From positions 1 through 63,555 of the forward strand of contig QHXI01000114.1 in the NCBI GenBank assembly GCA_003222895.1: 63,555 nt of DNA. Direction: 5' to 3'. Of this stretch, positions 8,101-45,377 are shown one piece after another. The translations under genes and the position numbers were made by a program. The notes beneath the pieces were generated by a model. That model searched no databases and had not been told where the DNA came from. It saw only the letters and a program-made list of their open reading frames with translations. Within the stretch, counting starts at the first letter, position 1. Each line of letters opens with the position of its first letter. Source of the stretch: Acidobacteriota bacterium (GTDB taxonomy: Bacteria > Acidobacteriota > Blastocatellia > Pyrinomonadales > Pyrinomonadaceae).

Positions 8101-8243
8101 ATCCACAGATTAACGCAGATCACACAGATAAAGACTTAGCCACAAAAAAGCACAAAAGGCACAAGATCAAATTCTTCCTTTGTGCTTCTTGTGCCTTTTT
8201 GTGGCTTCCATTTCTTTCTGTGTAATCTGCGTAATCTGTGGAT
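8101..8243. repeat. Long imperfect palindrome, 'CCACAGATTAC / GCACAAAAAGGC' family, copy 1
   Basis: Nested inverted repeat of about 143 bases: the outer arms are ATCCACAGATTAACGCAGAT and its complement at the far end, and the inner arms are GCCACAAAAAAGCACAAAAG against CTTGTGCCTTTTTGTGGC. The arms are built of short repeated units with about 8-10 base spacing (CACAGAT, GCACAAA). Copies 2 and 3 are at 9203-9342 and 28268-28418; half an outer arm recurs at 41372-41395. Confidence 0.85.
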
Positions 8244-8249
8244 GACTCT

Positions 8250-9202: not shown

Positions 9203-9342
9203 CCGCAGATTTCGCAAACTACACAGATAAAGAAATACTGAGCCGCAAAAAGGAACAAGAAGCACAAAAGGATTGTTTGGTTTTGTGCCTTTTGTGCTTT
9301 TTCGCGACTATGTCCCTTTCGGTGAAATCTGCGTAATCTGCA
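9203..9342. repeat. Long imperfect palindrome family, copy 2
   Basis: Same architecture as 8101-8243: outer arms 'CCGCAGATTTCGCAAAC' and 'ATCTGCGTAATCTGC', inner arms with GCACAAAAGG against CCTTTTGTGC. It lies between the start of the rhomboid gene and the end of the bacterioferritin-like gene, both read leftward, so it is both a leader and a 3' region. Confidence 0.8.
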
Positions 9343-19091: not shown

Positions 19092-19177
19092 CCTCTCCCG
19101 TGAGAGAGGGTGGGGTGAGGGATTACGATTTGGCGCGCTAAGACCCTCACCCTAACCCGCTCTCAGAGGGAGAGAGA
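19092..19177. repeat. REPIN-like paired palindrome, 'CTCTCCC...GGTGAGGG' family, copy 1
   Basis: Two REP-like units face each other: CCTCTCCCGTGAGAGAGG-TGGGGTGAGGG at the left and its inverse CCCTCACCCTAACCCG-CTCTCAGAGGGAGAG at the right, with a loop of about 25 bases. Further copies are at 44173-44313, 45284-45377 and from 63488 to the window end. Confidence 0.85.
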
Positions 19178-19188
19178 ACTACTCCAAA

Positions 19189-28886: not shown

Positions 28887-28969
28887 CGCTTCTCCGTTTC
28901 CTACTTTTGCAAATCATACGATCGGCGGTTAGTCTTACGCCACAATCAAGATCATTTCCGGGAGAACAC

Positions 28970-30199
28970 ATGGCCATCATTCGTCCATTCAAAGCTCTTC
29001 GTCCGCCGGTCGAACGCGCCGCAGAAGTCGCCGCAGTTCCTTACGACGTGGTAAACACGGCAGAAGCGCGCGCACTCGCGTCGGGTAATCCGTTGAGTTT
29101 TCTGCACGTGTCTCGTCCGGAAATTGACTTGCCGGACGGCACTCCGATTTACAGCGATCGGGTTTACGGTAAGGCGGCTGAGAATTTCACTAAGCTAAAA
29201 AAAGACTGCCCGCTAAAAAATGAAGAGACGCCGAGCCTCTACTTCTATCGATTGATCATGGGCAATCACGAGCAGATTGGCATCGTTGCTTGTTGTTCAG
29301 TAGATGAGTACGACCGGGACATAATTCGCAAGCACGAGCGCACGCGGCGCGATAAGGAAGATGATCGCACGCGCCACATCCTTGTGCTGCGAGCGCAAAC
29401 CGGCCCAGTGTTTCTGACTTATCGCGCGCAAGAAAAGATCGATGGGCTGGTTGCTGAAGCGCTCTCTGGCAATCCGCCGTTGTATGACTTTGTCGCTAAC
29501 GATGACATTCGTCACACAATCTGGCGCGTGCCGAATTATCAGCGGCTGGTCGATGCGTTTGCCGGCGTTCCGTATCTCTACATCGCCGACGGCCATCATC
29601 GTGCAGCGAGCGCCAGCCGTGCGCGAGCGGAATTGAAGGAACAGAGTTTTGGCATCGTCGGCAATGAAGAATACAACTTCTTTCAATGCGTGCTGTTTCC
29701 CGATAACCAGTTGCAGATCCTTCCTTACAACCGCGTCGTGCGCGATCTGAATGGCATGTCATCCAAAGATTTTCTCGCGCGCGCCCGCGAAAGCTTCGAA
29801 GTAACTGAGAATGGATCGCCTTCACCAAAACAGCGCGGCAATTGGAGCGTGTATCTTGATGGTAAATGGTATGGACTTGCCCTGAAGGATGAAGGTTCGC
29901 GGCCGTCGGGCGCAGTTGAATCACTCGATGTGAGTGTCTTGCAGGATCGTCTGCTCGATCCAGTTCTCGGAATCAAAGATGTGCGCACCGACAAGCGGAT
30001 CGATTTCGTTGGCGGCATTCGCGGCACTGAAGAGTTAGAGAAGCTCGTGAATGAAGGCAAAGCAGCCGTCGCGTTCTCGCTTTACGCGACAACGATCGAC
30101 GATTTGCTGAAGGTGAGTGACGCCGGAGAAATCATGCCGCCGAAATCAACCTGGTTCGAGCCGAAGCTCAGGGATGGCTTGTTGAGTCACGAGATCTGA
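28970..30199 (+). CDS. DUF1015 family protein
   Basis: A 409-residue cytoplasmic protein of a widespread uncharacterised family (COG4198). 'MAIIRPFKALRPP', 'AAVPYDVVNTAEA' and 'IADGHHRAASASRAR' are family hallmarks. The DGHHR block resembles the catalytic-site motif of the ParB/sulfiredoxin-like fold, which includes the free serine kinases SerK and SbnI. From memory, DUF1015 genes often sit beside serA/serC; here they are about 3 kb from serA. A link to serine phosphorylation is therefore worth testing but unproven. The start is the ATG at 28970 with GGGAG upstream. Confidence 0.9.
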   Translation: MAIIRPFKALRPPVERAAEVAAVPYDVVNTAEARALASGNPLSFLHVSRPEIDLPDGTPIYSDRVYGKAAENFTKLKKDCPLKNEETPSLYFYRLIMGNHEQIGIVACCSVDEYDRDIIRKHERTRRDKEDDRTRHILVLRAQTGPVFLTYRAQEKIDGLVAEALSGNPPLYDFVANDDIRHTIWRVPNYQRLVDAFAGVPYLYIADGHHRAASASRARAELKEQSFGIVGNEEYNFFQCVLFPDNQLQILPYNRVVRDLNGMSSKDFLARARESFEVTENGSPSPKQRGNWSVYLDGKWYGLALKDEGSRPSGAVESLDVSVLQDRLLDPVLGIKDVRTDKRIDFVGGIRGTEELEKLVNEGKAAVAFSLYATTIDDLLKVSDAGEIMPPKSTWFEPKLRDGLLSHEI

Positions 30200-30478
30200 C
30201 GTGTCCGAAGCCCGACCGTAAGGGAGGGCTACTCATGCCACCATGGCGAAACGCGATTACATCGATTTTCAGGATAGAACTTCCCCACTAGGCTATCTAA
30301 TTCACTTTTCGGTGCTATGGCACTTGGCTACACATGGCAGTACGCCCTATCTGTGGACGGACGATGAGCTTCGTAGGGCGATCGATTACGTAATCAATGG
30401 GCAAGGTGATGAGCCGTTTCGATAAAGATCGTGGTGAAGTTGGTAGCCCTCCCTGACGGTCGGGCTTCTGACACGTCA
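30197..30478. mobile_element. MITE-like relic: 36-bp inverted repeats around a deleted RAYT transposase
   Basis: Two 36-base arms face each other: 30197-30232 and 30443-30478, differing at two positions only. Each carries TGACGTGTC at the outer tip and the REP core GAAGCCCGACCGT-A/C-AGGGAGGGC. The outer tips form the TGA stop codons of the two flanking converging genes, so the element fits the gap between DUF1015 and hemW exactly. Inside is a relic of a REP-associated tyrosine transposase (see 30243-30425). It could also act as a bidirectional transcription barrier. Confidence 0.85.
30243..30425 (+). pseudogene. RAYT (REP-associated tyrosine transposase) remnant
   Basis: The open frame codes 'MAKRDYIDFQDRTSPLGYLI'; skipping one C at 30303 continues as 'TFRCYGTWLH' (30304-30333), which is the conserved N-terminal block of RAYT/Y1-type transposases. 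After a junction near 30335-30345 the original frame gives 'YLWTDDELRRAIDYVINGQG', the conserved C-terminal end of the same family. The middle, with the catalytic HuH pair and Tyr, is gone. So the gene has both a one-base insertion and a large internal deletion and cannot be active. Confidence 0.85.
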
Positions 30479-31627
30479 AGCCAGGGCCGCAAACACTTCA
30501 TTCGATAGCAGTGCTCCACGCGTCGTCAGCTTGAGCAATTCGCCCTCGATTTCGATCAATCCGGCTGTGCGCAATCGATCGAGCTCGCCGTTGTATTCCT
30601 CGCGCAGATTTTTTCCAAACCGCGATTCATACGTCTGCAGATCGATTCCTTTCATCAGACGCAATCCCAGAAAAATCGATTCTGAGCGGGTCTCTTCATC
30701 ACTCAATATCGTTCGATCCACAATCGCCGAATCACCCTGCTCAATCATTTCGACGTACTTCGCCGCGTCCCGTTCATTGGCCCAACGTTGGCGCGCGCCG
30801 TCGTAGGAATGCGCGGAATTTCCAAAGCCATAATAAGGACTGCCTACCCAATACTTGGTGTTGTGACGCGATTCGAAACCAGGCAAGCAGAAGTTTGAGA
30901 TTTCGTAATGCTCATAACCGGCGGCACACATTTGATCGATCATCGTCGCGTACATCTCAGCCGCGAGATCGTCGTCAGGTTTCGGTCGCATGCCGCGGTT
31001 GATTTGATCCGCGAGCGGCGTGCCCTCGTGCACGTCGAGCAGATACAGCGAAAGATGTTCCGGTCTGAGTTTCAGCGCATCATCAAGATTTCGTTTCCAT
31101 CCGGCCATCGTCTGCCCGGGCAACCCAGCAATCAAATCAAGGTTGATGTTCGCGAATCGCGCATCGCGCAGAAGCGCAAACGTCTTTCGAACATCGGCTG
31201 AATCGTGCGTCCGGCCAAGCAACTTCAATTCACGATCGTCGAAAGTCTGCGCGCCGAAACTGGCCCGATTAATTCCGAGGCTTCGCCACGCGCGCATCGT
31301 TGCGCGTCTCGATTCGGGGTCGGCCCCGCCGTCTCCAGGATTAATCTCGAGAGAAATTTCCGGCGCATCGATTACCTCGAATCGATCTTTGACCGCACCC
31401 AGGCTTCGTTTGATTTGCTTTGTCGATAACAACGACGGCGTGCCGCCACCGAAATAAATCGTGTCGACCGTCGCCGGCTTATCAATCTCTCGCCAGTCAT
31501 GAATCTCTGAACAAAGCGCATCGACATACGTTTCGGCAATCTCGCTCTGGTACATTTCGGTCGCGAAATCGCAGTACGAACAGCGCGAGCGGCAGAACGG
31601 GATGTGGATGTACACGCCGGCATTCAT
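30476..31627 (-). CDS. hemW: HemW / oxygen-independent coproporphyrinogen oxidase-like radical SAM protein
   Basis: A 383-residue radical SAM enzyme. The N-terminus 'AGVYIHIPFCRSRCSYCDF' carries the CxxxCxxC cluster motif followed by Cys-Asp-Phe, the pattern of HemW rather than HemN. Other HemW blocks are 'TIYFGGGTPSLL', 'EINPG', 'GINRASFGAQTF' and 'HTKYWVGSPYYGFGNSAHS'. HemW proteins bind heme and deliver it to respiratory enzymes; older annotations call them coproporphyrinogen dehydrogenases. It diverges from lipA, with 41 bases between them. Confidence 0.93.
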   Translation of the reverse strand: MNAGVYIHIPFCRSRCSYCDFATEMYQSEIAETYVDALCSEIHDWREIDKPATVDTIYFGGGTPSLLSTKQIKRSLGAVKDRFEVIDAPEISLEINPGDGGADPESRRATMRAWRSLGINRASFGAQTFDDRELKLLGRTHDSADVRKTFALLRDARFANINLDLIAGLPGQTMAGWKRNLDDALKLRPEHLSLYLLDVHEGTPLADQINRGMRPKPDDDLAAEMYATMIDQMCAAGYEHYEISNFCLPGFESRHNTKYWVGSPYYGFGNSAHSYDGARQRWANERDAAKYVEMIEQGDSAIVDRTILSDEETRSESIFLGLRLMKGIDLQTYESRFGKNLREEYNGELDRLRTAGLIEIEGELLKLTTRGALLSNEVFAALA

Positions 31628-44166: not shown

Positions 44167-44172
44167 ATAACT

Positions 44173-44313
44173 CCCTCTCCCTTTGGGAGAGGGCCGGGGT
44201 GAGGGCCTAGCGCGACCTAACCGGAATTTATTTCTCTTTTGGGCTTTCGTGAGTCGGACGAAAAAAGAAAATCCAATGGTCGCGTCACTAAGCCCTCACC
44301 CAAAGGGAGAGGG
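44173..44313. repeat. REPIN-like paired palindrome, copy 2, between pstS and pstC
   Basis: CCCTCTCCC-TTT-GGGAGAGGG (44173-44193) is a perfect 9-bp hairpin followed by a GGTGAGGG box; the inverse copy GCCCTCACCCAAAGGGAGAGGG lies at 44292-44313. The second half is inside the first codons of pstC. The stem right after pstS could protect the 3' end of its mRNA. Confidence 0.88.
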
Positions 44314-45283: not shown

Positions 45284-45377
45284 TCCCTCTCCCTCTGGGA
45301 GAGGGTCAGGGTGAGGGTTTGACGCGAATCGCGACTACCGCCCTCATCCCCATCCTTCTCCCGATGGGAGAAGGGGA
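45284..45377. repeat. REPIN-like paired palindrome, copy 3, between pstC and pstA
   Basis: CCCTCTCCCTCTGGGAGAGGG plus TGAGGG faces CCCTCATCCC with CTTCTCCCGATGGGAGAAG; about 25 bases separate the two units. It fills most of the space between pstC and pstA. Confidence 0.88.

Follow-up and report, generated by a model that had tools for sequence, protein, structure and literature searches.

Between the convergent DUF1015 and hemW genes of an Acidobacteriota bacterium lies an element of 282 bp, the two ends of which are inverted repeats and the interior of which reads as the two ends of a transposase. What is this element: a mobile unit in the making, a pair of hairpins retained by the neighboring genes, a new small protein, or the remains of something already known? 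We examined it in a stretch of 63,555 nucleotides (the window), in the rest of its draft genome (G000) and in the genomes of relatives. In our judgment it is very probably (about 0.9) a dead REPtron, i.e., a Y1 transposase gene together with its flanking REPs, and so an element of a familiar sort that has decayed, rather than a new mobile one.

A repeat search of the window returned an inverted repeat of 47 nt at 30197-30243 and 30432-30478 (85% identity). Its outer parts, 30197-30232 and 30443-30478, are identical at 34 of 36 positions (94%), in agreement with an earlier note on this DNA, and when 24 bases of the arm were searched for in the window, allowing three mismatches or fewer, they turned up at two places, the two arms themselves (shuffle mean 0.00). 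Boundary census, core count and single-strand fold together delimit the REPs. The left REP (30201-30229, forward strand) consists of GTGTC, the foot CCGA (30205-30208) and a hairpin core (30210-30229) with a GTAA loop and tandem G-A mismatches; the right REP (30446-30474, reverse strand) consists of GTGTC, the foot CAGA (30467-30470) and a core at 30446-30465. In both arms GAAG precedes the CCC stem. The hairpin pair now encloses 180 bases of relic, and the two cores are separated by 216 bases, mostly transposase remains.

The same note had described the arms as carrying a REP core, and this core is dispersed genome-wide. The 20-base sequence GCCCGACCGTNAGGGAGGGC, with at most three mismatches, was found at 129 places in the genome (67 + 62), and the reversed control gave none (0 + 0); the arm is therefore a genuine dispersed repeat rather than a sequence unique to this locus. 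The exact core stands at 54 of the listed places, as counted from the listing. We then aligned 91 copies (at most two mismatches) with their flanks, drawn from 73 stretches of this genome rather than from the whole of it. The conserved unit (GTGTCAGAA plus core) starts with GTGTC, nine bases ahead of the core, and the bases beyond it are unconserved except for a preference for C or A at position -10. Of the 91 copies, 76 have a CnGA foot (positions -5 to -2), and in 68 it reads CAGA; GTAG-like CnGT feet account for 5 of 91, and an exact GTGTC precedes the foot in 59 of 91. The arrangement of the two arms, GTGTCnGAAG followed by the core, is the commonest REP subtype in this genome.

These REPs are also organized in pairs. 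In the stretches scanned, which hold 125 REP places at up to five mismatches, 49 of the 52 adjacent pairs within 300 bases are head to head, and 27 of those 49 have 13-17 bases between their cores; the genome's head-to-head pairs are REPINs. The largest gap among the 49 belongs to the element studied here (216 bases), followed by a second relic on contig C134 (136 bases). With REPINs as described in the available part of PMC3116915 the element shares two inverted, head-to-head REPs, but it carries 216 bases of mostly transposase remains in place of a short spacer. In many REPINs one arm is the variant GCCCGCGCGTNAGCAAGGGC; examples that pair it with GCCCGACCGTNAGGGAGGGC are G000:C41:1047/1082, C42:44366/44401 and C65:17445/17481, and as a core it flanks class-3 transposase genes elsewhere (L199, L253). 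At G000:C88:81774-81987 (L016) two REP pairs stand in tandem, with similar inner edges, apparently through local duplication.

What lies between the arms, all on the forward strand, can be read as a transposase in pieces. An N-terminal block, MAKRDYIDFQDRTSPLGYLI, runs in the frame of an ATG from 30243 to 30302; blastp aligns it with the genes of G004, G006 and G010 at 70-80% over 17-20 residues, and it corresponds to positions 1-16 of a profile (HMM A2) that we built from 31 relatives and ran on 5,073 stop-to-stop segments of at least 12 aa from 77 loci of this genome. Comparison with the relatives' genes shows that a single C is inserted at 30303, shifting the frame, after which the block continues in the next frame as TFRCYGTWLH (30304-30333; HMM positions 14-32, E 8.8e-5). 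A deletion junction follows at 30331-30336, and then a C-terminal block, GSTPYLWTDDELRRAIDYVINGQGDEPFR, with its TAA stop (30336-30425; HMM positions 135-163, i-Evalue 2.1e-8), which is 80% identical to G003:C152 over 30 residues. This block retains the putative catalytic tyrosine of a Y----Q motif and reads YVINGQ. In the frame of the ATG the whole-sequence E value is 1.3e-10, and the match to model positions 1-16 is weak by itself (i-Evalue 3.5). The profile thus meets the start of the protein, its frame-shifted continuation and its end in that order, with the middle absent. Both the inserted C and the two transposase blocks with a missing middle had been proposed from the letters alone; the profile search, which could have left the blocks without any such similarity, and the DNA alignment bear them out.

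At the DNA level, positions 5-137 of the element align with 45-169 of G010:C55 and positions 136-216 with 510-590; about 340 bases, including the NHxH motif, are therefore missing from the relic. The junction reads CTACACATGG, as against CTxCAYGG and GACAYGG in relatives, and the break, which falls between two "HG" positions of the protein, may have occurred at a shared sequence of two bases or at a longer one, both being compatible with the junction. Both halves together with their arms align to G010:C55 and, in short pieces, to G022:C113, and the C-terminal half with its arm aligns to G060:C5, G003:C644 and G003:C152. NHxH and most of the fold were lost with the deletion. What survives is the first strand together with the helix that bears the putative catalytic tyrosine, a residue the position of which we infer from IS608; in the predicted fold of one intact relative this helix spans residues 152-164. 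The 60-aa open reading frame that remains gave only HTH_psq at E 0.19, under the cut-off, in Pfam and no match in NCBIfam, so its identity rests on the relatives, whose reading frames of about 170-210 aa its blocks match at both ends, and on the profile built here.

Which kind of Y1 transposase was it? The Q of an IS200 transposase stands in the motif Y---Q. PMC6006769 divides the Y1 transposases into class 1 (TnpAIS200), in which Y---Q is the signature of subclass 1.2, class 2 (RAYT/TnpAREP, with Y---NP) and a small class 3. The last is characterized in the available text of that paper by Y----Q, NHVH, a length of about 178 aa and flanking hairpins with a CnGA foot; its hosts are Planctomycetes, Acidobacteria and Proteobacteria, and its members are regarded as possible intermediates between IS200 and RAYT. 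The earlier note took the relic for a RAYT. Its view that a REP pair here holds what is left of the pair's own transposase, one of the Y1 kind, stands, but the class changes: given Y----Q and the CnGA foot, which reads CCGA and CAGA at the two arms, we assign the relic's transposase to class 3 TnpAY1 rather than to the class-2 RAYTs, by the published motifs.

The relatives carry the same motifs. Y161 and Q166 are invariant in our alignment A1; in A2, Y161 is invariant and Q166 nearly so. Among 78 relatives from named genomes, Y----Q is present in 72, NHxH in 77 and both in 71, and Y---NP in none. Since NHxH is deleted from the relic, the relic counts as class 3 only as a dead member. Some relatives' hairpins read GTAG. 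The best 80 relatives include 51 from Acidobacteriota and 20 from Planctomycetota, by record title. Both of the two intact relatives tested exceed the cut-off of PF01797 (Y1_Tnp), for which the relic by itself is too short. Two relatives score below the cut-offs of the NCBIfam models REP_Tyr_transpos (26.9 and 14.7 bits vs. 80) and IS200 (32.2 and 20.6 bits vs. 55). Membership of IS200/IS605 class 1 was considered and rejected, because the relatives space the two residues of the motif by four positions rather than three and because of the IS200 score. The predicted fold of one relative (mean pLDDT 83) has 19 PDB matches at E 1e-4 to 1e-3 (TM by query about 0.34-0.50), all of them Y1 transposases of IS200/IS608/ISDra2/RAYT type, including the E. 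coli RAYT-REP complex 4er8; a PDB sequence search with A1 gave no match.

As far as class 3 is described in the available part of PMC6006769, the family studied here shares with it Y----Q, the relatives' NHxH, a length of about 170-180 aa, extended N-terminal conservation and flanking hairpins with CnGA feet in many copies. It differs in that the copy here is dead, with HxH lost and the frame shifted, and in that its hairpins also occur head to head as REPINs, an arrangement not seen for class 3 in that part of the paper. With the REPtrons of class 2 RAYT/TnpAREP, as portrayed in the accessible portions of PMC2817692, PMC3116915 and PMC3733652, the family has in common a Y1 gene between REPs, genome-wide REP dimers and, for one relative, a predicted fold resembling 4er8, but the element lacks Y---NP and the GTAG/GTRG foot, and two relatives fall below the REP_Tyr_transpos cut-off. 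The TIRYT/TIRtron of Acidobacteria, to judge from what is available of PMC3733652, likewise has RAYT-like Y1 genes flanked by inverted repeats; compared by description only, it and class 3 may be one family.

If the element is what remains of a REPtron, intact examples should stand between hairpins of the same family. The earlier note had suggested looking for full genes flanked by the same kind of arm, and we found three: at G005:C21, in the same genus, an intact gene (173 aa counted from the ATG) enclosed by inverted hairpins of this REP family; at G022:C113, a gene in the same setting; and at G060:C5, a gene that has REPs of this family to either side. These genomes hold 60 (G005), 84 (G022) and 19 (G060) REPs at no more than one mismatch. 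Broken copies also adjoin REPs of this family, one frameshifted in G010 and others as fragments in G003. The class-3 genes examined in G001 and G006 had no adjoining REP of core GCCCGACCGTNAGGGAGGGC. The intact homologues between same-family hairpins identify the element as a dead REPtron.

Flanking repeats are general in this class of genes. When the two flanks of each gene were compared for inverted matches, the highest score reached at least 20 in 60 of 77 class-3 genes (L249, one of the 60, matches on a run of N, and the long matches at L220, L228, L251 and L263 are arrays rather than single hairpins), compared with 5 of 151 mismatched pairs, which share REP families and thereby have raised control scores. 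The comparison started from 80 loci from named genomes; L234 and L254 were set aside for short flanks, and one of the remaining 78 was lost to a length filter. A GTGTC foot on both sides, with one mismatch allowed, marks the 9 of 78 proteins nearest to the relic (0 of 20,000 permutations), in a test that was devised post hoc on genes related by descent. The idea that the type-A REP core tracks protein similarity to the relic was rejected (13,189 of 20,000 permutations).

The flanking genes show where the element ends and the host begins. The DUF1015 gene (28907-30199, forward strand; Pfam DUF1015, E 4.6e-102) ends with TGA at 30197-30199, and the convergent hemW-like gene (30476-31627, reverse strand; radical SAM and HemN_C by Pfam) ends with TGA at 30478-30476. 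The arms as drawn above contain both stops, and it had been suggested that the tips of the element supply them. This does not hold: in five relatives, all without this element at their DUF1015/hemW junctions, each of the two proteins has its last residue at the same place and a stop of its own. DUF1015 stops with TGA in G006 and G003, TAG in G001 and G002, and TAA in G005, and HemW with TGA in all five (a sixth relative, G004, is cut by a contig end and stands outside this comparison). The outer TGA is host sequence, because the REP consensus starts at GTGTC, and the arm match appears longer because both genes happen to end in TGA. In the five relatives' junctions (L078-L082) differing palindrome-rich sequence, judged by eye, occupies 119-209 bases between the stops, and the junction (30200-30475 in the window) is apparently a repeat-tolerant spot. 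G006 is the closest of the relatives when judged by DUF1015 identity (88%). Seven bases past its stop, with spacing exactly as here, lies a degenerate stretch resembling the left arm, GAAGCCTGACCGT; one of 300 base shuffles scores equally anywhere in the junction (with the G002 row uncounted). This trace suggests that the insertion may predate the split from G006.

A second relic lies at G000:C134:95866-96064 (L020), where two REPs enclose 136 bases ending in NGQGDEPFR and a stop. At the orthologous site G003:C152 (L061) the piece enclosed by REPs is longer; alignment of the two sites covers 1,379 bases of flank at 78% and 28 bases of C-terminal-block DNA at 86% (E 8.5e-4). The same site holds a lone REP in G002 and a degenerate REP in G005, and within 700 bases of it G001 and G006 have no REP at up to four mismatches; G004, which could not be anchored, was left out. 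Such a series is as expected if this relic decayed in place. Across the 77 own-genome loci, HMM A2 recovered the element studied here, a distant class-2-like gene (L107, the same as the L036 gene) and a sub-threshold match (L035), and it missed the C134 remnant, which rests on the weaker signs of its NGQGDEPFR end (match E 2.19), the 28-base DNA match and the orthologous site.

No gene in G000 matched the class-3 profile at E 1e-10, and a full-length class-3 query returned only the relic's own pieces there; each of the six other genomes of the genus has at least one match to the profile, some of them broken or fragments. An intact class-3 gene is thus likely to be absent from G000, judging from a draft that is 96.4% complete and could therefore lack a copy, and the REPs may have outlived their transposase. 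Of 13 genomes with at least 17 REPs, four have no class-3 match (G000, G007, G068 and G071); REP number and the presence of a class-3 gene are loosely associated (Fisher p 0.007, with a threshold chosen afterwards and genomes that are not independent). Other Y1 genes do occur in G000. At C158:32634-33806 (L035, L162) a frameshifted Y1 transposase is flanked by an inverted pair of REPs that belong to a rare subtype, with the foot CAGT or similar. Its motif is another one, which in its relative L032 reads Y---Q--HH, and it contains palindromes of its own; it was considered as a possible driver of the REPs. Open class-2-like genes (Y---NP) lie at C42:59628-60284 (L036), C71:55276-55593 (L037) and C129:52287-52535 (L038), and these could act on REPs in trans.

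The most likely course of events would begin with a gene for a class 3 TnpAY1, an HUH/Y1 single-stranded-DNA transposase, lying with two inverted REP hairpins between DUF1015 and hemW. By analogy with IS608 and the E. coli RAYT, the intact protein would bind the hairpin and its CnGA foot, and its tyrosine would cut and rejoin the strand. The intact ancestor, or a close sister, would have spread REPs through single-strand cleavage at CnGA feet; since the arms are of the commonest REP subtype, the simplest reading credits the spread to the gene at this locus or to one of its close sisters, the C134 relic for instance, and it is on this basis that we infer a causal link from the relic gene to the REP population. 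The gene would have died through the deletion of about 340 bases and the one-base insertion at 30303, in either order. The deletion, the frameshift, the homology, the repeat family and the intact homologous REPtrons are matters of observation.

Could the element instead be mobile in its reduced form? It was proposed to show the making of a REPIN or MITE, a non-autonomous unit that arose by internal deletion and was moved in trans by an intact transposase. The anatomy is that of a MITE, with intact inverted ends and a deleted middle, and Bertels and Rainey (PMC3116915, in its available part) proposed that REPINs derive from REPs flanking an ancestral element. Against this, the 282-bp element is single-copy in G000 (40 of 114 first-look candidates scored); apart from the element itself, only C134 matches any of its interior, partially and at 76%, and C134 is a separate relic, the site of which has its ortholog in G003:C152. 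A genome search with the C-terminal block gave only these two places. Moreover, 72,556 plasmid records held no match, G000 yielded no intact class-3 gene that could move the element, and the other head-to-head pairs are mostly short-gapped, with no transposase remains of at least 12 aa found in them. We therefore regard mobility of the reduced form as very improbable. Alternatively, the deletion may be older than the relic's arrival here, the shortened copy having come in through gene conversion or capture between two REPs; in favor of this, there is no known intact gene at the site, and G006 has at most a left-arm trace. G010:C55 closely resembles the relic, however, in its blocks, in both arms and in the distances outside the deletion, and at C134 the sister relic decayed in place, which makes a ready-made arrival improbable.

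Two further readings give the present element a function. REPs of E. coli act as transcription terminators and stabilizers of mRNA 3' ends, and the pair here might likewise be kept as a two-sided terminator or 3' stabilizer for DUF1015 and hemW, with the relic as passive filler. The element fills the entire gap of 276 bases between the convergent stops, and the palindrome-rich gaps of the five relatives (by eye) look as if hairpins were tolerated or favored at this place. Taken singly, however, the hairpins fold only modestly better than shuffles (z -1.03 and -1.04, with DNA parameters), and the transposase sequence is left unexplained, so this could be an added role only, and we think it unlikely. 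The 60-aa frame (30243-30425) might also be a new functional mini-protein made of two transposase ends, such as a regulator that binds hairpins; it still has its start codon, open frame and stop, and the C-terminal block is back in frame after 30303. The chance of regaining the frame is one in three, however, ten residues are in the wrong frame, HxH and most of the fold are absent, and no other match at E <0.001 spans both blocks in one stretch in 97 genomes. Such a protein strikes us as extremely improbable. A dead REPtron remains our preferred reading.

The dead REPtron bears on a question that PMC6006769, in its available part, left open, namely whether class 3 is IS-like or REPtron-like. 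The flanking repeats of 60 of 77 genes, the foot agreement (post hoc) and the head-to-head REPINs in this genome all touch on it. Tentatively, and with more doubt than confidence, one may go further: the class-3 transposase responsible for spreading the 129 REP sites would be dead in two places and is not found elsewhere in the draft, with a REP/REPIN population that is still uniform (54 exact cores), so that class 3 would behave like a genuine REPtron and not like an insertion sequence, and the REPINs would persist without their own enzyme, by host selection or through other Y1 transposases acting in trans. Persistence after loss of the transposase is not unprecedented, given that REPINs are still present in E. 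coli genomes without a RAYT (PMC8049555, in its available part). A genus that has class-3 genes in sister species and, here, a dead gene with surviving REPs is a natural test of REPIN persistence after such a loss. In the literature searched, which included few subscription journals, only PMC6006769 and PMC3733652, in the parts available, touch on REPINs in Acidobacteria, and a search for RAYT remnants with REPs gave PMC3390384, the remnants of which, in its accessible text, are those of an integron, prophages and other transposons. The value of the locus lies in tying a poorly known class of transposases to a REP population, in a genus some species of which still have the gene alive; the finding itself, though real, is of an ordinary kind.

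The window contains other repeats as well. An inverted repeat of 94 bases (80%) at 8113-8206 and 9241-9334 surrounds about 1 kb. The dispersed repeat "CTTTCTGTGTAATCTGCGTAATCTGTGG" at 8214-8245, with related copies, is a separate family. The repeated palindromes CCCTCTCCC...GGGAGAGGG at 44172-44215, 45284-45327 and 19143-19178 form a separate REP-like family.
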